Assembly: GCF_009768975.1 (NCBI RefSeq)
Contig: NZ_CP035733.1
Coordinates: 2,462,001 to 2,526,000 of the forward strand
Source of the DNA: Sphingorhabdus lacus
GTDB taxonomy: Bacteria > Pseudomonadota > Alphaproteobacteria > Sphingomonadales > Sphingomonadaceae
Direction of reading: 5' to 3'
Length of the DNA: 64,000 bases
Of this stretch, positions 47,192 through 59,926 are shown in pieces. A model generated the notes under the pieces. The model saw only the letters and a program-made list of their open reading frames with translations, made no database searches and was not told where the DNA came from. Within the stretch, counting starts at the first letter, position 1, and each line of letters opens with the position of its first letter. The position numbers and the translations under genes were made by a program.

Positions 47192-48091
47192 ATGCTTCGA
47201 AAAATCTCCACCTCGCTCGTGCTTTTCGCTTACGCAACGTCAGCCATGGCCGATACGCCCAAGGGGCCGCTAAGCTTGAAACCGACATCCGCGTGGCATG
47301 TCGACTATGCCGATGACCGCTGCCGCCTGGCGCGGCAGTTCGGGGCAGGCGACGACCTGGTCTTTGCCTTTTTCGACCGCTATGGCCCGGAGGAATCCTT
47401 CCGCCTGACCCTCGCCGGAAAGCCGATGCGCGTTTCGTTGGATCAAGGTGAGGCTTCCGTACAATTCGGGCCCGCCGAAGGCGAACAGAAATTTGCCTTT
47501 TTCAAAGGCAATCTCGCCGAACGAACAGCGATCGTCTTTTCGAGCGGAGAGCGGATCGGGCCGGTGACGTTTGATGAGCGCCAAAGGCTGGACCGTGCAA
47601 AGCCTGAAGACCCCCGAATAGTCGAGCCGATCAGCGCGGAGCGGAAAAAGGCCGTTCGCTTTTTGAAAATCGGAAGACCGCTGCGCAACGAGGTCATTCT
47701 CGAAACAGGCTCCATGAACGGACCGCTGAAAGCGCTCGACACCTGCATCGATAATCTGATGACGGTCTGGGGGATTGATGTGGAACGGCACAGGACGTTG
47801 ACCCGGTCGGTTCGTCCTGCCAACAATCCCGGCCAGTGGATCGTTGCCGCAGACTATCCGTTAAACATGCTTTCGGCGGGGCAACCTGCGATCATAGAAT
47901 TCCGGCTGAGCGTTGGTGCAGACGGCAAGGCAACATCCTGCCACATCCAGTCCACGACCCGGCCCAAGGAGTTCGACGCAGCCGTCTGCAAATCAGTCAT
48001 GCGCCGTGCGCAATTTGTGCCCGCCTTGGATCGCGATGGAAAAGCTCTCGCATCCTTTTACCGCAATCGCGTGCGCTTCCAGATTCCTTGA
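47192..48091 (+). CDS. Secreted protein with C-terminal TonB-like domain (copy 1)
   Basis: The 299-residue protein has a Sec signal peptide ending near SAMA. An N-terminal domain follows, with TSAWHVDYADDRCRLARQFGAGDDL. The TonB-like C-terminal fold runs from about residue 215 (PAIIEFRLSVGADGKATSCHIQ, then FDAAVCKSVMRRAQFVPA). It lacks the membrane anchor and proline-rich spacer of true TonB, so it is not expected to energise outer-membrane receptors. It is a paralogue of the convergent gene at 48141-48995. Function is unknown. Confidence 0.75.
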   Translation: MLRKISTSLVLFAYATSAMADTPKGPLSLKPTSAWHVDYADDRCRLARQFGAGDDLVFAFFDRYGPEESFRLTLAGKPMRVSLDQGEASVQFGPAEGEQKFAFFKGNLAERTAIVFSSGERIGPVTFDERQRLDRAKPEDPRIVEPISAERKKAVRFLKIGRPLRNEVILETGSMNGPLKALDTCIDNLMTVWGIDVERHRTLTRSVRPANNPGQWIVAADYPLNMLSAGQPAIIEFRLSVGADGKATSCHIQSTTRPKEFDAAVCKSVMRRAQFVPALDRDGKALASFYRNRVRFQIP

Positions 48092-48140
48092 TTTTAGAAT
48101 ATCCAAGTCAAACCGCGATCGATAATAGTAGACGCGTGTT

Positions 48141-48995
48141 TCAGTCGGGCAGGCTCCAACGAACCCGGTTGATATAGTGCGACGCCGTTGCGGTTCCATC
48201 AGCTGCAATTGCGGGTTTAAATTTCGCGCGCTTCATCATGAGGCGGCAAGTGTGTTGATCTAATTTCGGCGTCTTGCTTGAAATGATCACAAGGCATTTG
48301 GTTGGCAATCCTGCTGCATCGATATCGAGCTTGAAGGAGACAATACCCGAAATCCCGTCACGTAGCATGTCATCGGGATAATCGAGTATGTTAGCCCATT
48401 CTTCAGGGTTCATTCTCGGTTCGGCTAAAGACACAAGAGATCGCATCTGCGGGCCATCAATCCCCCAACCTTTCAACAAATCGTCATGGCAAGTTTCCAT
48501 CGCTTTGAGCGCCGCCGGAAAATCGTCTATCTTGAGTTTGACGCGGTAATTTTCATCCGACGTCACAAACAGTTCCTGGTTCTTGGGACCGGCCAAAATG
48601 GGTATCAGATCTCCATCATACCAGCGCAGAATCCGTTCTTTGCGGTTTGGGATATCTCTATTTTCGCCCTTAAAACTTTGCGTAGAGTTTTGGGGAGAGA
48701 TGGTGATCTCGATATCAACGCCCGTCGACTGCTTCGGGATGGAAACGCCTGCGAGCATAATATCGTAATTCGTGAATGATGTACCCCTCGCCAGCCGGAA
48801 CAGGATCAAGTCCTGGTCGGTGCCAAAATTTCGGGTCAGCCGACACTCGCGCTCCGCATATTCAACCTTCCATTGCGAAGTCGGGCGCAATGCTTCCAAG
48901 GCAACAGCCTGGGTCTGGGCCTGTGCGACTGAAAAGGCGACGGCACCCGTAATCCAAGACGCAAGAAGCATCTGAACTATTGTTCTAGCGATCAT
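48141..48995 (-). CDS. Secreted protein with C-terminal TonB-like domain (copy 2)
   Basis: From MIARTIVQMLLASW the protein has 284 residues, with a signal peptide ending near SVAQAQ. The domain plan is the same as copy 1: TSQWKVEYAERECRLTRNFGTDQDL in the N-terminal domain and VSFKLDIDAAGLPTKCLV then HTCRLMMKRAKFKPAI in the TonB-like domain. Starts at 49001 and 49037 are also possible. The two paralogues are tail to tail with 49 bases between their stops, so they are an inverted, diverged duplicate pair. Both keep paired cysteines that could form disulfides in the periplasm. Confidence 0.73.
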   Translation of the reverse strand: MIARTIVQMLLASWITGAVAFSVAQAQTQAVALEALRPTSQWKVEYAERECRLTRNFGTDQDLILFRLARGTSFTNYDIMLAGVSIPKQSTGVDIEITISPQNSTQSFKGENRDIPNRKERILRWYDGDLIPILAGPKNQELFVTSDENYRVKLKIDDFPAALKAMETCHDDLLKGWGIDGPQMRSLVSLAEPRMNPEEWANILDYPDDMLRDGISGIVSFKLDIDAAGLPTKCLVIISSKTPKLDQHTCRLMMKRAKFKPAIAADGTATASHYINRVRWSLPD

Positions 48996-49108
48996 AAACA
49001 TGCTCCAAATAGCCCATTGCCGCATTGCCTTCGACATTATGAGGGCCTCCTAATCTACTTATGATGACTCCCCTTGCGCGCCAAGGTTAAATACCCGAAG
49101 GGCGGCGC

Positions 49109-52530: not shown

Positions 52531-52555
52531 TTTTACATAGTTTAGCTATGTTAAA
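52531..52555. promoter_or_regulatory. 25-bp dyad upstream of the LuxR-type gene
   Basis: TTTTACATAG and CTATGTTAAA are reverse complements at 9 of 10 positions, separated by TTTAG. The AT-rich dyad sits about 50 bases upstream of the GTG start of the LuxR-type gene. It is a good candidate operator for that regulator or for another dimeric protein controlling the Nfr-like operon. Confidence 0.5.
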
Positions 52556-52604
52556 TGGCTAAATTGATGAAACATCTCCCTTTTTTTATATCAGGATTGC
52601 CGAG

Positions 52605-53075
52605 GTGACACACCCTTCACGCGCTGATTTGTCAGATGGGCAGAAACAATGCCTCCGGCTTGTAGGTCAACATCTGACGTCCAAGGAAATCGCCCGTAAA
52701 CTCGGCATCTCCCATTTCACCGTTGACCAAAGGCTGGATTCAGCCCGGCGCAAGCTGAATGCGCACAGCCGGAAGGATGCCGTCCGCATTTTCATGGCCA
52801 TGGAACAGGAAAGTCTATCCGAGCCGCTCGTATACGAACCGTCGGATATTGCTGCGGAGCGTGAAGTCCATATGCAGAACCCACCGCCCGAGGGGAGGAC
52901 AGGGATATTTGCCTTTGCGGCATCACGGATATCCGTGCCGCCGATTGGGGGGAAACGGCATCATCTGCCGAAAAGGGAAATATTGGTTCAATCGCTCAAC
53001 ATCGCATTTTTCAGCACGCTCCTGATTGCTTTGGTCGTCATCATCCTCACCGGAACACTTCGCTTGTTTCGATAG
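52605..53075 (+). CDS. LuxR-type HTH regulator with C-terminal membrane anchor
   Basis: The 156-residue protein (GTG start) has an N-terminal LuxR/GerE helix-turn-helix (LSDGQKQCLRLVGQHLTSKEIARKL then SHFTVDQRLDSARRKL, residues 9-58). A linker follows, then one membrane helix near the C-terminus (SLNIAFFSTLLIALVVIILTG, about 130-150). There is no receiver or ligand domain. The topology is a cytoplasmic DNA-binding domain tethered by its tail. It opens a same-strand run of five genes ending with an outer-membrane-type protein. Confidence 0.8.
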   Translation: MTHPSRADLSDGQKQCLRLVGQHLTSKEIARKLGISHFTVDQRLDSARRKLNAHSRKDAVRIFMAMEQESLSEPLVYEPSDIAAEREVHMQNPPPEGRTGIFAFAASRISVPPIGGKRHHLPKREILVQSLNIAFFSTLLIALVVIILTGTLRLFR

Positions 53076-53125
53076 GACGTCTCCAACAGGTGCTGCGATG
53101 CCGGGCATGACATGGGAGAATGTTC

Positions 53126-53464
53126 ATGGTGAAATATGACATCCGGTCTGCGCAGCAACTTGCCGCCGATATCCGGTCCGCACATGGCGCGATCGACGCC
53201 GCACTTGCCGATCTGGCGACGCTAACCTGTTCGGTCATCAACACGTGCCGGTCATCGGATGCCGCTCCCGCAGAGACGCAGGCAGCCATCGAGAAGATCA
53301 CGGCGGGCCTCGTGAAAATGGTGGATGCACGCGATGGATTTGTGCGTGCCCACCGCGAAATTGCCATCGCGCAAAGCAAGAGCAACTTGAAGGAAACCAA
53401 TTTCGGCTGTGTCGGAACCGGTCCCCTGACCGCGCCCGCCGGTCTGCACGTGGTCGGCAGCTAA
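53126..53464 (+). CDS. Hypothetical small helical protein in the Nfr-like operon
   Basis: The 112-residue protein from the ATG at 53126 (GGGAGA ribosome site) is mostly helical: MVKYDIRSAQQLAADIRSAH, then DAALADLATLTCSVINTCRS and AAIEKITAGLVKMVDARDGF. Two or three cysteines are near the middle and end. It has no signal peptide or membrane segment, so it should be cytosolic. I do not recognise a family. Spacing of 50 bases from the LuxR-type gene and 30 bases to the next gene supports an operon role. Confidence 0.6.
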   Translation: MVKYDIRSAQQLAADIRSAHGAIDAALADLATLTCSVINTCRSSDAAPAETQAAIEKITAGLVKMVDARDGFVRAHREIAIAQSKSNLKETNFGCVGTGPLTAPAGLHVVGS

Positions 53465-53494
53465 GCCAGCCGAACCGCGTCCCGTTTCCGGCCC

Positions 53495-53950
53495 ATGGAC
53501 ATATTGCAGGCAACATTTCTGGGCGGCCTCTTTCTGTGTCTTGCGTACGCCGCGCGGTTCGGCGGTCGCACGGGACGGGCTGGCGCCGTGATATTTGCCG
53601 CAGCAACATTTTTCACGGCGCTTGGCGCAGCGGCCAAACCGGATTGGGCGGGCACCTCCTATGCCGTTTTGGCGACGGATGCCGCATGCCTAATCGCCCT
53701 CGTCCTTCTGGCATGCAACAGCAGCCGCTATTGGCCGATTTGGGCAACCGGATTCCAGATCGTGGCGGTTGCGACCCATGTCGCGACCCTATGGATCCCG
53801 GACATTGTGCCGATAGCCTATCAGGCTCTGCTATCTTTCTGGAGCATTCCGATACTCGGCGTGATGGTGGCGGGGACATGGCTCGATATGGTGCAGCCGG
53901 ATGTTATGCGTTCTCCGGGTCCGGCGACCCAAAAGGGCAAAGGCCCATGA
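53495..53950 (+). CDS. Four-helix membrane protein in the Nfr-like operon
   Basis: The 151-residue protein has four predicted membrane helices (about residues 5-20, 28-45, 60-78 and 85-105, with a further weaker one near 118-134) and a short polar tail. The sequence is not recognised. It overlaps the start of the glycosyltransferase gene by 4 bases (ATGA), so the two products are probably made in fixed ratio and may interact in the inner membrane. Confidence 0.65.
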   Translation: MDILQATFLGGLFLCLAYAARFGGRTGRAGAVIFAAATFFTALGAAAKPDWAGTSYAVLATDAACLIALVLLACNSSRYWPIWATGFQIVAVATHVATLWIPDIVPIAYQALLSFWSIPILGVMVAGTWLDMVQPDVMRSPGPATQKGKGP

Positions 53951-55335
53951 CGCCGCTTTTCAGCTGGATACAGCATTTGCAGCATGAATTGCTTCTGTTC
54001 GGTGCCTTCTGGTTTCTGGTCGGTGCAGTCGACGATCTGTGCATTGACCTGCTGTGGTTCGGGCACCGGATGCGGTCGTTCCTGCGCCGGTCCGGCAGGC
54101 AAGAGGACCGTGCCGCGCCGCTGGATGACCATGGATCGTTGATGGCCATCTTCGTTCCCGCATGGGCCGAGGAGGCGGTTATCGGGACGATGCTGCTGCA
54201 TTGCCTCACCGCTTGGAGAGACAGCCCATGCCGCTTTCGCATTTATGTGGGATGCTACCCCAATGACCGGGATACGGTTCTCCGTATTCTGGAAGTTTCG
54301 CGAACCGCGCTTCAGATCCGTCCCGTGTTGCTGCCGCATAAAGGGCCGACGACGAAGGCCGACTGCCTCAATCATCTTTGGGCTGCGCTATTGGCCGATG
54401 AAATTGCGGAAGGTTTCAGCACAAAGGCCATCATCCTGCACGACGCGGAAGACGCCGTGCACCCGGGCGAGCTTGACCTGTTCCATCGTCTGATCCCGCA
54501 CTATGCCGCCGTGCAACTGCCCGTGATCCCCGTTCGGGCGCCCGGATCGCGCTGGGTGAGCGGCCATTATTGCGACGAATTTGCTGAATCGCATGGCAAG
54601 ACCATGGTCGTGCGGCAGGCCCTTGGCGCGCATCTCCCGCTTGCAGGGGTCGGCTGCGCCATTGATCGACATATGCTGGAGCGCATCGCGGGTCAGGCAA
54701 ATGGCCAGCCATTTGACCAAAGCAGCCTGACCGAGGATTATGAGTTAGGGCTGACAATAGGCAGGCTGGGCGGCCGGACGATCATGGCCCGGACACGCGG
54801 ACGCGATGGGCAGTTGATTGGAACGCGATCCTGCTTTCCGGCCACCTTGTCGACATCCGTCCGGCAGAAGACACGATGGCTTACCGGCATCGCCTTTGCA
54901 GGCTGGGACCGGCTGCGCTGGAACGGCGGTCTGGCCCAGAAATGGATGCTGCTGCACGACCGGCGCTCGATCTTCGCCGCAGCCGTGATGCTTGCCGCCT
55001 ATCTGGGAATGGCGGTGGCGGGCTTCACAGCGTTACTGGGGAAGGCGCATTATCTCGAACCAGAGCCGATCTCGGCTTCGCTGACATCGCTGCTCATTCT
55101 GAATTCCCTTTTCCTTTTCTGGCGACTGGCCATCCGTGCCGCTTTTGTGGCTTCGGTCTATGGACCTGCCGAGGCCATGCTCTCTATTCCGCGCAGTCTG
55201 GTGGGCAATATGATCGCCATCTTGTCGGCTCGCAAAGCCGCTTTTGGCTATCTACGCCACTGCCTTGGCGCACCTCTTTCCTGGGACAAGACCGAGCATC
55301 TGGTCGTCCCCGTGCCGCAACATTTGCAGGTCTGA
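53947..55335 (+). CDS. NfrB-like processive glycosyltransferase (GT2), lacking the MshEN domain
   Basis: The 462-residue protein has an N-terminal membrane helix, a GT2 catalytic domain and about three C-terminal helices. Catalytic features are IILHDAEDAVHPGEL (DxD-like), SLTEDYELG (TED) and RQKTRW (Q-x-x-R-W), the pattern of processive synthases such as cellulose synthase. Overall it resembles NfrB of E. coli, the inner-membrane glycosyltransferase of the N4 glycan receptor system, but that protein is about 745 residues and has a C-terminal c-di-GMP-binding MshEN domain. This one stops after the last membrane region. Confidence 0.8.
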   Translation: MTPLFSWIQHLQHELLLFGAFWFLVGAVDDLCIDLLWFGHRMRSFLRRSGRQEDRAAPLDDHGSLMAIFVPAWAEEAVIGTMLLHCLTAWRDSPCRFRIYVGCYPNDRDTVLRILEVSRTALQIRPVLLPHKGPTTKADCLNHLWAALLADEIAEGFSTKAIILHDAEDAVHPGELDLFHRLIPHYAAVQLPVIPVRAPGSRWVSGHYCDEFAESHGKTMVVRQALGAHLPLAGVGCAIDRHMLERIAGQANGQPFDQSSLTEDYELGLTIGRLGGRTIMARTRGRDGQLIGTRSCFPATLSTSVRQKTRWLTGIAFAGWDRLRWNGGLAQKWMLLHDRRSIFAAAVMLAAYLGMAVAGFTALLGKAHYLEPEPISASLTSLLILNSLFLFWRLAIRAAFVASVYGPAEAMLSIPRSLVGNMIAILSARKAAFGYLRHCLGAPLSWDKTEHLVVPVPQHLQV

Positions 55336-55336
55336 C

Positions 55337-56356
55337 ATGCGCGGACGTCAGTTCGGATTTCTGGCCCTGTTGGCCGGGTTCTGGTGTGCGGGCCGGATTA
55401 TGACCGCGCAATCCGTTCCCGCATCGCAGCAAGCGCCCAAACTCAAGACGGTCGCTGCACAGTCCCCATCGACGACAACCCCGCAACAGCTCCACCGCGC
55501 CACGCCCACACCCTCTCCGGAGCGCATAGCCCGATCTGCAGGGCATCGCCTGCCGGTCACACCGATCTCGGCCTTGTCACCGATATCGGCGCATATCATC
55601 CCGCCATCGACAGCGTTGGTAACGGCACAAGCAACAACCCCATGGCAAGGCCCCGCGACATCATTCGCTCCCACCGCGCCATCGGGGAATACACAGGTAG
55701 AGCAGCCACGCGTGCTACATGTCTACGGCTACAGCTTTTTCCGCAAGGCATCCGCTTCCGGCCTGACCGCTCCCGGGGCGCAATATGGCGGCAGCCAGAG
55801 CGGATTTGTTGCGACATGGGACATTGTTCCGCCGCGCCGAGGCCGCGACATGTTCCGCATTGCCCTTTTGGCGCGCGCGGCGATTGCGCATGGCAAAACG
55901 CCCGACCGTGAGCTTTCCGCCGGTATCCGTTTGCAGCCGCTGCCCCGCTTGCCCGTTTCGCTTTCGGTCGAACGCCGTTTCCGGCCTACGCGCGCCGATG
56001 CCAATGCCGCTTATCTTGCAGGGGGCACATCGCTTGCCCTGCCCCGTGCCTTTCGGATGGACGCCTTTGCGCAGGCCGGAATAGTTTCGGGACCTGCGGC
56101 AGGTCCCTTTTTCGATTTTTCCGCGCAAGCGGACCGCAAATTTGTTCAATATCGAACAGGCACAGCGCGGGCCGGAGCCGGCCTGTGGGGCGGCGGCCAA
56201 AGCGGTGTGTTCCGTATTGATGTCGGCCCGACGGTGCGCACCGACATCGCAATCGCCAGAACAAATCTGCGCCTTAGTGCCGATTGGCGCATCCGCATTG
56301 CGGGCGACGCTGCACCTGCCAGCGGACCGGCGATGACATTGTCCACCAGTTTCTGA
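55337..56356 (+). CDS. Outer-membrane-type protein resembling the C-terminal domain of NfrA
   Basis: The 339-residue protein starts one base after the glycosyltransferase stop. It has a signal peptide (RQFGFLALLAGFWCAGRIM), then a Pro/Ser/Thr-rich linker of about 115 residues. A beta-rich domain follows with YGGSQSGFVATWDI and LSAGIRLQPLPRLPVSLSVERRF, a pattern I associate with the NfrA C-terminal barrel. It ends in a Phe, as outer-membrane proteins do. E. coli NfrA is about 990 residues with TPR repeats; none are seen here. It probably exports the glycan made by the upstream enzyme. Confidence 0.68.
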   Translation: MRGRQFGFLALLAGFWCAGRIMTAQSVPASQQAPKLKTVAAQSPSTTTPQQLHRATPTPSPERIARSAGHRLPVTPISALSPISAHIIPPSTALVTAQATTPWQGPATSFAPTAPSGNTQVEQPRVLHVYGYSFFRKASASGLTAPGAQYGGSQSGFVATWDIVPPRRGRDMFRIALLARAAIAHGKTPDRELSAGIRLQPLPRLPVSLSVERRFRPTRADANAAYLAGGTSLALPRAFRMDAFAQAGIVSGPAAGPFFDFSAQADRKFVQYRTGTARAGAGLWGGGQSGVFRIDVGPTVRTDIAIARTNLRLSADWRIRIAGDAAPASGPAMTLSTSF

Positions 56357-56408: not shown

Positions 56409-57323
56409 ATGGATATCTATCTTCCCATCGCCAATTTGTCCGTCAATGCCCTTGTCATCATCCTGCTGGGTGGTGCGGTCGGCATGCTGTCGGGAATGTT
56501 TGGCGTTGGCGGTGGTTTCCTGACCACGCCGCTGCTGATCTTTTACGGCATTCCACCCACGGTCGCGGCGGCGTCTGCCTCTACGCAGGTCACCGGAGCA
56601 AGTGTTTCAGGTGTCTTTGCCCATATGAAACGCGGCGGTGTCGATTTTCAGATGGGCGCGGTGCTCGTGGTCGGCGGCATGTTCGGGACAGCCGCCGGGG
56701 CCGCAATATTCGAGATATTGGAGGCGCTGGGTCAAATCGATACCGTCATCAATATTCTCTATGTCGTCATGCTGGGTAGCATCGGCGGACTGATGGCAAA
56801 GGAAAGTCTGGGAAGTGTGCTGGCGGTGCGGGCCGGCAAGCCCCGCCCTGCCGCCAAACGCCGCCACCATCCGCTTGTTGCCAGCCTACCGATGCGGTGG
56901 CGTTTCTACCGTTCGGGTCTCTACATCTCACCGCTGGCTCCGCTGATCCTGGGCTTTGTAACTGGTATCATGACCATGCTGCTCGGCGTCGGTGGCGGCT
57001 TCATCATGGTTCCCGCAATGCTCTATCTGTTGGGCATGGGGGCGCAGGTGGTGGTCGGCACATCGCTGTTCCAGATATTGTTCGTCACCATGGCATCGAC
57101 CATGATGCACAGCCTGACCACCAAGGCGGTGGATATCGTCCTTGCTGTCTTTTTGCTGATCGGCAGCGTCACCGGTGCGCAGATCGGCGCCCGTCTGGCG
57201 CAGCGTATGCGGCCCGACTATCTCCGCCTTTTGCTGGCGGCCATCGTCCTGCTCGTCGCGCTTCGCATGGCACTGGGTCTGGGATGGCGGCCCGATGAGA
57301 TTTACACGGTGCAGGCGCTATGA
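56409..57323 (+). CDS. TauE/SafE family sulfite exporter-like permease
   Basis: The 304-residue protein has about eight membrane helices and the duplicated TauE motif: LLGGAVGMLSGMFGVGGGFLTTPLL near residue 17 and FVTGIMTMLLGVGGGFIMVPAMLYL near residue 180. Family members export sulfite, sulfoacetate or other anions. Its stop overlaps the start of a TIGR02186 gene by 4 bases; this pair is conserved in alphaproteobacteria. Confidence 0.9.
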   Translation: MDIYLPIANLSVNALVIILLGGAVGMLSGMFGVGGGFLTTPLLIFYGIPPTVAAASASTQVTGASVSGVFAHMKRGGVDFQMGAVLVVGGMFGTAAGAAIFEILEALGQIDTVINILYVVMLGSIGGLMAKESLGSVLAVRAGKPRPAAKRRHHPLVASLPMRWRFYRSGLYISPLAPLILGFVTGIMTMLLGVGGGFIMVPAMLYLLGMGAQVVVGTSLFQILFVTMASTMMHSLTTKAVDIVLAVFLLIGSVTGAQIGARLAQRMRPDYLRLLLAAIVLLVALRMALGLGWRPDEIYTVQAL

Positions 57324-58084
57324 AATGGATCGTGGCGCTGGCGTTGATGTTCCTGCCCCTCTCGCTTTCGGCGCAGGCGGTACCCAAATTGGTACCCGAT
57401 GTGTCGCAGAGACAGATCAACATCCAGTCCGGCTTTACAGGGGCCGAATTGCTGCTTTTCGGGGCCATCATATATCCACGCGGCGTTGCACCCGAAGGCC
57501 AGGTCGATGTCGCCGTCGTGTTGCGCGGCCCCGCCCGGCCGATCACCTTGCGTGAAAAGCAGAAGATCGCCGGCATCTGGATTAACGCGGATAGCAGCGA
57601 TTTCCGCTCGGTTCCGGTCTATTATGCAATCGCCTCCTCCCGTCCGCTCCGCAATATTGTCGACAGCAAAACCGCCGCCATTTACGAATTGGGCCTCGAT
57701 AAGCTGCAGCTTTCGCCCAGCGGCGAAGTGGACGCGAAAGAACAGCGCCGTTTCAGCAATGGCCTTGTCGACTTGAAGCAGCGCAACGGGTTGTTTCGTC
57801 AAGAGGCCGGATCGGTCGAAATCACGGATCAGGTGCTTTATCGCGCCCGCCTGAAAATCCCGTCCAGTGTTCCAGTAGGCACCTATGTCGCCGAAACGCT
57901 GCTGATCCGGAACGGGCGGGTGATTGTGGCCGATGACAATGTCGAGGTGCGTGTGCGCAAGACAGGTTTCGAACAACTGATCACCGTTCTGGCGCAGGAT
58001 TATTCCCTGTTCTACGGGGCCATGGCGGTCCTGGTGTCGCTGCTTCTGGGCTGGTTTGCAGGCTATATCTTCCAACGCATCTGA
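57320..58084 (+). CDS. TIGR02186 family transmembrane protein
   Basis: The 254-residue protein has a signal peptide ending near SAQA, a large periplasmic beta domain (FTGAELLLFGAIIYPRG, VAVVLRGPARPITLREKQK) and a C-terminal membrane anchor (YGAMAVLVSLLLGWFAGYIF). It matches TIGR02186, a family found next to TauE/SafE permeases and thought to help in sulfur compound export. It is coupled to the upstream permease gene. Confidence 0.87.
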   Translation: MKWIVALALMFLPLSLSAQAVPKLVPDVSQRQINIQSGFTGAELLLFGAIIYPRGVAPEGQVDVAVVLRGPARPITLREKQKIAGIWINADSSDFRSVPVYYAIASSRPLRNIVDSKTAAIYELGLDKLQLSPSGEVDAKEQRRFSNGLVDLKQRNGLFRQEAGSVEITDQVLYRARLKIPSSVPVGTYVAETLLIRNGRVIVADDNVEVRVRKTGFEQLITVLAQDYSLFYGAMAVLVSLLLGWFAGYIFQRI

Positions 58085-58128
58085 TACGGCCTATTTTGGC
58101 TAAATCAGCAAAAAGTGCGGGGCCCGAT

Positions 58129-58146
58129 AGTAAATAAATCTTTACT
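58129..58146. promoter_or_regulatory. AT-rich dyad upstream of the HerA-like gene
   Basis: AGTAAA (58129-58134) and TTTACT (58141-58146) form a perfect 6-6-6 dyad about 45 bases before the HerA-like start. It may be an operator or chance in an AT-rich promoter region. Confidence 0.25.
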
Positions 58147-58189
58147 TTCTAACTCTACAGTCGGCCCGATCATAAAGGGCATTTCGACC

Positions 58190-59926
58190 ATGGATATTAG
58201 CGGAAATCACCAGTTTTCATCGGCGCAACCCCTCGACAGCGCGGGCATGGCGACGGCACAGGCAGGCCCCGTCGCAATGGCACCGGCCGCCCGCGAGGCA
58301 GCCACGCACGTCCCGACAAACGGTCCGGCATTGCACCATATCGGTTTCGTTATGGAAATTGCTGGGTCCAGTTCGCAGGTCACGCTGGATTCCGGCGTGC
58401 TCAACGAGCTGATGGCGCACAGCGATCCCAGCATTGCCATGGCCGGGCAGGTTGGCAGTCAGATCAAGATACGCGTCGGCAGCACCTGGCTGCTGGCAAG
58501 CATCCGGACCCAGAAATTGCACGAACGTGAACAGGGAGTCATCATGGCCGCCGTGGATTTCCTCGGCGAAGGCGATGAAGAAAAATTGACGGGGAAAATC
58601 TATAATTTCCGCCGTGGTGTGACCCGCTATCCCGTTCCGGGCAGCGAAGTTTACGCTGTCTCCAGCTCGGATATGAAGCAGGTGTATGCCGCCGATGCCC
58701 GCGCGCATGTCGAAATCGGCACCGTTTTCCCTACCAAGGATATTCGCGGCGCGCTCTATGTCGACGCGATGCTCGGTAAGCATTTCGCGCTTCTGGGATC
58801 AACCGGTACCGGTAAGTCCACCAGTGCGGCCCTGATCCTGCATAAAATATGCGATATCGCGCCCGAGGGCCATATCGTCATGATCGACCCGCACGGCGAA
58901 TATTCCGCCGCGTTCAAGAACAACGGCGCGCTGTTCGACGTCAACAACCTCGCCATGCCCTATTGGATGATGAACTTTGCCGAACATTGCGAAGTCTTTG
59001 TGACATCCACCGGGGACGACAAGCAGATCGACAGCGACATTTTGGCCCGCTGCCTGTTGCAGGCCCGTTCGAAAAACCGGATTGCCGAAAGCATCGGCAA
59101 GCTGACCGTCGATGCCCCGATCCCCTATCTGTTGTCGGATCTGACCAACATCATCCAGACCGAAATGGGCAAATTGGACAAGGCGACAAACAGTGCGCCG
59201 TTCATGCGTCTGAAGGGCAAGATCGAGGAACTGAAAGCCGATCCGCGCTATAACTTCATGTTCTCCGGCATGTTGGTGGGTGACACCATGGCCGATTTTG
59301 TCGGCAAGATTTTCCGTCTGCCATCGGGCGGTAAGCCCATCTCGATCATCGACGTGTCGGGCGTTCCGTCCGATATTACGTCAACAGTGGTCGCCGTTTT
59401 GTCGCGCCTTGTCTTTGACTATGCCATCTGGTCGCGCAACGAACCGCAGCGTCCCATCTTGCTGGTCTGCGAAGAAGCCCACCGTTACATTCCGTCCGAC
59501 CGCGTGTCCAAAGCCAGCGCCGTACGCTCGATCTTGGAGCGTATCGCCAAGGAAGGCCGTAAATATGGCGTGTCGCTGGGCCTCATTACGCAGCGTCCGT
59601 CCGACTTGGCCGAAGGTGTGTTGTCGCAGTGCGGCACGATCATCTCGATGCGTCTCAACAACGACCGCGACCAGGCCTTTGTCCGCGCAGCGATGCCCGA
59701 AGGTGCACGCGGCTTCCTGGATTCCATCCCCGCGCTGCGCAACCGCGAATGCATCATTTGCGGTGAAGGTGTGAGCATTCCCATCCGCGTCGCTCTCGAC
59801 AATCTCGAGGAAGAAAAGCGCCCGGCATCGGAAGACCCGCTGTTCAGCCAGTTGTGGCAGGAAACCGGCGGCGAAAGCGAGATATTGGAACGTGTCGTCA
59901 GAAGGTGGCGCGCCCAGGGCCGGTAA
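58190..59926 (+). CDS. HerA-like DNA translocase/ATPase (DUF87), orphan
   Basis: The 578-residue protein from MDISGNHQFS has a HAS-barrel-like N-terminal region. Walker A is GSTGTGKST at 203-211, Walker B is PILLVCEEAHRYIP near residue 422, and sensor-like segments such as ITQRPSDLAEGVLSQCGT follow. It resembles HerA/FtsK-type hexameric ATPases. In archaea HerA works with the nuclease NurA; here no nuclease gene is adjacent, and the downstream gene is a convergent beta-helix protein. A GTG at 58115 would add 25 residues but lacks the family N-terminus. Confidence 0.85.
   Translation: MDISGNHQFSSAQPLDSAGMATAQAGPVAMAPAAREAATHVPTNGPALHHIGFVMEIAGSSSQVTLDSGVLNELMAHSDPSIAMAGQVGSQIKIRVGSTWLLASIRTQKLHEREQGVIMAAVDFLGEGDEEKLTGKIYNFRRGVTRYPVPGSEVYAVSSSDMKQVYAADARAHVEIGTVFPTKDIRGALYVDAMLGKHFALLGSTGTGKSTSAALILHKICDIAPEGHIVMIDPHGEYSAAFKNNGALFDVNNLAMPYWMMNFAEHCEVFVTSTGDDKQIDSDILARCLLQARSKNRIAESIGKLTVDAPIPYLLSDLTNIIQTEMGKLDKATNSAPFMRLKGKIEELKADPRYNFMFSGMLVGDTMADFVGKIFRLPSGGKPISIIDVSGVPSDITSTVVAVLSRLVFDYAIWSRNEPQRPILLVCEEAHRYIPSDRVSKASAVRSILERIAKEGRKYGVSLGLITQRPSDLAEGVLSQCGTIISMRLNNDRDQAFVRAAMPEGARGFLDSIPALRNRECIICGEGVSIPIRVALDNLEEEKRPASEDPLFSQLWQETGGESEILERVVRRWRAQGR

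Follow-up and report, generated by a model that had tools for sequence, protein, structure and literature searches.

What is known of NfrB-type glycan synthases comes nearly all from Escherichia coli, where cyclic di-GMP (c-di-GMP) switches the synthase on. NfrB, NfrA and YbcH of E. coli constitute the N4 glycan receptor system (PMC8669469, PMC8669472), and MshEN domains are reported in 1,705 of 1,841 NfrB homologues, some in alphaproteobacteria (PMC8669469), so that MshEN-less forms of NfrB have been seen before. Here we describe a related locus of five genes, designated A to E, in a stretch of 64,000 nucleotides of the Sphingorhabdus lacus genome (the window), which lies within a single contig of 3.46 Mb. 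As in the E. coli Nfr system, a synthase gene of NfrB type with the same catalytic motifs (D) is followed directly by the gene of a predicted outer-membrane barrel protein (E), whose profile is similar to the C-terminal region of NfrA. Unlike the E. coli system, D is without MshEN, E (339 aa) is without tetratricopeptide repeats (TPR), and the genome has no match to the YbcH family PF14488; the locus had been characterized in a preliminary description as a shortened Nfr relative, and these differences fit that description.

The reading that we favor, with somewhat better than even confidence, is that D and E are a synthase and an exporter forming a minimal pair akin to NfrB/NfrA and that a cassette in front of them (A-B-C) sets their expression. 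What is new is the family-wide minimal pair, the generality of the A-B-C cassette, and a possible two-membrane anchor in E. We computed homology, gene order, the barrel model, conservation and the distribution of the cassette; the glycan, its sugar, export, membrane tethering and regulation are what we infer.

The synthase D and the candidate exporter E

By its sequence, D is an NfrB-related family 2 glycosyltransferase (GT2) synthase, as proposed earlier. It matches Pfam Glyco_tranf_2_3 (E 2.3e-35), is 34% identical to E. coli NfrB over residues 6-451 (BLASTP, E 4e-76), and passes the curated cut-off of NF011307 / PRK14716 (534 vs 431 bits), a model that names a glycosyltransferase only and no partner, exporter or regulation; it stays below the cut-off of the NfrB equivalog model NF008411 (278.9 vs 1170 bits). 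No useful similarity was detected by BLASTP to PgaC (E 0.38) or BcsA (E 8.1). The acidic, TED and QxxRW motifs noted previously are confirmed at residues 165 (reading HDAED, the same as in NfrB), 262 (TED) and 307 (QKTRW), with DAED, TED and Q..RW invariant in 81/81 aligned D proteins. PF05157 (MshEN) matches E. coli NfrB (3.8e-14) but not D, which stops where NfrB continues into MshEN.

The survey of the two genes covered 249 genomes from the family-level group to which the window belongs, with D called at E <= 1e-40 and, for the joint counts, a few unlisted rows inferred from absence among the positives. D was found in 227 genomes (205 above the model cut-off) and E in 223; 220 have both, 7 only D, 3 only E, and 19 neither. 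E was also found at 74 of 80 fetched D loci, the loci where it was not found being L006, L009, L011 and L015, and L060 and L077, which lie at contig ends. D-E is the conserved core of the system.

The AlphaFold2 (AF2) model of E consists of a short N-terminal helix, a long unstructured region and a barrel of twelve strands (Table 1). Comparison of profiles by hhalign aligned E with the NfrA C-terminal barrel at 92.3% (E 5.5e-7), and at 95.9% in another comparison, with reversed and block-shuffled controls at no more than 4.7%; the E profile shows no useful similarity to PgaA (0.1%) or BcsC (0.3%). The preliminary likening of E to the NfrA C-terminal domain is supported at the profile level. 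Single NfrA-type sequences score from 0.6 to 59% against E (6% for one NfrA sequence), and PF13283 (NfrA_C) matches neither any protein of this genome nor any of 37 E homologues, which tells against our reading. TPR families likewise gave no match in E or the 37 homologues; NfrA itself was matched.

The N-terminus of E is open to two interpretations. E may have an inner-membrane anchor and a barrel in the outer membrane, since residues R2 to S26 form a gap-free segment in the 37 homologues with a nearly or fully invariant G3 (35/37), W16 (36/37) and R20 (37/37), and few sites like those of signal peptidase follow. An invariant arginine in such a position is unusual for signal peptides, and for that reason we infer a retained anchor. 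Alternatively, E is a conventional outer-membrane protein whose signal peptide is cleaved off and whose N-terminal tail is disordered, a pore without a tether, and this explanation is a serious contender that in our estimate falls just short of an even chance. It agrees with the single N-terminal hydrophobic stretch, which looks like a signal peptide, and with the last residue of the barrel, F in 34/37 and Y in 2/37 homologues (the 37th is truncated at the end of its contig), a terminal F or Y being the usual outer-membrane signature. It agrees less well with the conservation just described, which is unlike that of the signal region of Alph_Pro_TM proteins from the same loci: there, as a rough control, no column among residues 2-18 exceeds 57% identity. 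An A-x-A occurs within 16 residues past R20 in only 3/37 E homologues vs 25/54 Alph_Pro_TM proteins, a rough comparison because the regions searched differ in length. Between R20 and the barrel, the linker spans 104-196 residues (median 123).

The A-B-C cassette in front of the pair

A contains a GerE helix-turn-helix (HTH) domain (E 1.7e-11) and one hydrophobic segment (residues 131-149), B has no family above its cut-off in profile library scans, and C is modeled by AF2 with five helices (3-22, 24-47, 51-75, 79-100, 106-133; mean predicted local distance difference test score, pLDDT, 85.8). The earlier view of C as a four-helix membrane protein holds for the membrane bundle, the number four being approximate. 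A is similar to tethered regulators of the ToxR/CadC type in combining a DNA-binding domain with one membrane helix, and differs from them in that its HTH is LuxR-type and N-terminal, with the helix at the very end, and in that C always accompanies it and B nearly always does. This was seen in 73 C loci, i.e., 30 best matches, 40 picked down the list, the second copy of this genome, and two further genomes (G301 and G302). A lies upstream of C on the same strand in 73/73 loci, B is placed between them in 69 by the distance rule and is visible in the order of 2 more, and 23 loci have a MarR-like winged-helix gene (W) behind C by the same rule. RadC-like (JAB) frames were noticed by eye directly behind many cassettes (L123-L131 and others), sometimes before W.

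C-like proteins occur in 143/249 genomes, mostly away from D, and the S. lacus genome itself has a second copy, A2-B2-C2-W (contig C1, 15308-17137, minus strand; L118, 3309-5138), which adjoins a RecX-like gene. A-B-C is a general cassette and is not specific to the D-E system. The preliminary claim that A, B and C are the system's own regulator is not supported, as the cassette is found at many other places, including a second copy here, and D-E occurs mostly without it.

The cassette precedes D in Sphingorhabdus and Parasphingorhabdus; A or C adjoins D in 29/81 rows of the D tree, leaving 52/81 rows (51 or 52 of the 80 fetched loci) without either. When the cassette was mapped as a label on the D tree, 4 changes were required vs a mean of 24 after shuffling, and 0/500 shuffles were as low. 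Two D clades retain the cassette at D, and their outer neighbors differ, being an NhaA gene or a major facilitator superfamily (MFS) gene. L011 and L015 come from the genomes G301 and G302, in which D stands after A-C close to NhaA and lacks a neighboring B or E, and E follows an A-B-C elsewhere, apart from D (no search was made for a second D). E of this clade was found in 2/4 genomes searched and not in the other two, which are smaller assemblies; the E proteins of the split genomes also carry the conserved N-terminal motif, and the cassettes beside them group with the second copy of S. lacus.

A single origin of all 29 D-linked cassettes was rejected on the concatenated A+B+C tree (approximately unbiased test, p-AU 0.006). 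It was not rejected on C alone (p-AU 0.143), from which two long rows and duplicate copies of D loci had been left out. One clade of freshwater and Parasphingorhabdus cassettes was not rejected either (p-AU 0.163), and a clade of freshwater and L006/L009/L011/L015 cassettes was favored, the constrained tree being better by 21.15 log units. The cassette has likely become attached to D-E repeatedly; two attachments, or one and a later swap, appear to fit best, a soft result because the quick tree missed a better tree.

It is unlikely, though a fair objection, that the cassette is an independent regulatory or stress unit brought next to D by a rearrangement, with D-E merely sharing its transcript. 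Its wide distribution away from D and its association with W or RadC-like genes, also in the second copy of this genome, suit that explanation, as does the absence of a correlation with D-E. Weighing against our own reading, C is present in 10/19 genomes without D and E, close to the 57% overall, C adjoins D in at least 4/249 genomes among the matches listed, and the fold comparison of C gave no clear match; moreover, the cassette is not needed for the pair, since most D-E pairs have none alongside. Such an independent unit accounts poorly, however, for a linkage kept in two D clades with differing outer neighbors on the NhaA side and the MFS side, for the rejection of one clade on the A+B+C tree, and for an E that follows a cassette even when away from D.

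Layout of the locus and its neighbors

The five genes lie on the plus strand (52605-56356), separated by 50 bp (A-B), 30 bp (B-C) and 1 bp (D-E), with a 4 bp overlap of C and D; the coordinates agree with the tight last two junctions described before. All five are together in 20 of the 80 fetched relatives (19 by clustering of open reading frames, ORFs, and L038, where C was seen by tblastn), so their grouping is more than chance; the full gene order is kept in these loci and not in the majority, where D-E is without A or C. Judged by D, Sphingorhabdus contaminans (L026, 81%) is the closest relative with a name. The core of an inverted repeat upstream of A, ACATAG-N5-CTATGT, is common to L026 only among five relatives compared and was not found in L001, L002, L003 and L005.

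Table 1. Features of the locus, in window coordinates
Feature	Position	Strand	Description
Inverted repeat TTTTACATAG-N5-CTATGTTAAA	52531-52555		Upstream of A; possible operator
A	52605-53075	+	LuxR/GerE-type HTH protein, 156 aa, GTG start, one hydrophobic C-terminal segment; cassette gene 1
B	53126-53464	+	112 aa, small, soluble-looking, undescribed family; cassette gene 2
C	53495-53950	+	151 aa, membrane helix bundle; invariant D62, W80, W83, H95; cassette gene 3
D	53947-55335	+	462 aa, NfrB-related GT2 synthase without MshEN; NF011307 above cut-off
E	55337-56356	+	339 aa, candidate exporter with a membrane segment at the N-terminus, a disordered linker and a barrel of 12 strands
E residues 4-25	55346-55411	+	Predicted helix within conserved segment G3..W16..R20
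E residues 26-126	55412-55714	+	Pro-rich linker, pLDDT mostly <50
E residues 127-338	55715-56350	+	Twelve-stranded barrel domain
TauE/SafE-family gene	56409-57323	+	Usual next neighbor of D-E; putative member of the system
Alph_Pro_TM (TIGR02186) gene	57320-58084	+	Adjoins the TauE-like gene; putative member of the system

An NhaA gene lies behind the five-gene set on the opposite strand. A synteny block at 56409-59926 recurs among the 80 fetched loci by ORF clustering (TauE-like gene in 67, Alph_Pro_TM gene in 53, HerA-like ATPase gene in 56). Inside the E frame there is a terminator-like stem with a T-run (56089-56107), a kind of match not commoner than in shuffled sequences. Farther upstream, two convergent paralogous genes (47192-48091 and 48141-49037) encode exported proteins of approximately 300 aa, and the pair (47192-49037, cluster c33) recurs near the locus in other Sphingorhabdus genomes.

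Proposed mechanism and significance

In the minimal-pair reading, D at the inner membrane would polymerize a nucleotide sugar and pass the glycan outward, and the E barrel would release it through the outer membrane. UDP-N-acetylmannosamine is the best guess for the sugar by analogy; the genome has two WecB-type epimerase matches that exceed the cut-off, both encoded away from D-E. Because MshEN is missing, c-di-GMP would not gate D as it does NfrB, which is consistent with the preliminary suggestion that the system may be regulated differently, and the N-terminal segment and long linker of E probably replace the scaffold by holding the barrel to D. Within Sphingorhabdus and its sister group the cassette probably sets D-E transcription, with A as a membrane-tied HTH protein that would bind DNA and be released or activated by C, C as a putative membrane sensor or anchor, and B as a possible helper linking A and C. 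That D-E makes a periplasmic or lipid-linked glycan and that E has another outer-membrane role (channel or adhesin) is improbable, even though the E barrel comes closest in fold to autotransporter barrels, FapF, PcoB and KdgM and not to polysaccharide exporters, and a few genomes have E or D alone, given the near one-to-one co-occurrence and adjacency of D and E and the profile similarity of E to NfrA.

A bolder extension of the minimal pair, which we put forward tentatively and consider doubtful on balance, is that E is one polypeptide in both membranes, with an anchor docking on D via a W-x3-R face, a periplasm-crossing linker and a 12-stranded pore, and that A-B-C is a plug-in membrane signaling unit attached more than once. 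Among the entries listed by a literature search aimed at such a design, no similar polysaccharide exporter appeared. If this is true, the work done in the Nfr system by the TPR scaffold and YbcH would fall to E alone, and an E that bridges both membranes would be a new way of building an export channel.

The A-B-C cassette is an undescribed, probably regulatory unit, present in over half of the 249 genomes, and its attachment to a putative glycan operon is a first handle on what it may control. D-E is a form of the system without c-di-GMP switch and without scaffold in 220/249 genomes of a mostly environmental bacterial family, and could serve as a minimal set in which to ask how glycans get across the envelope.
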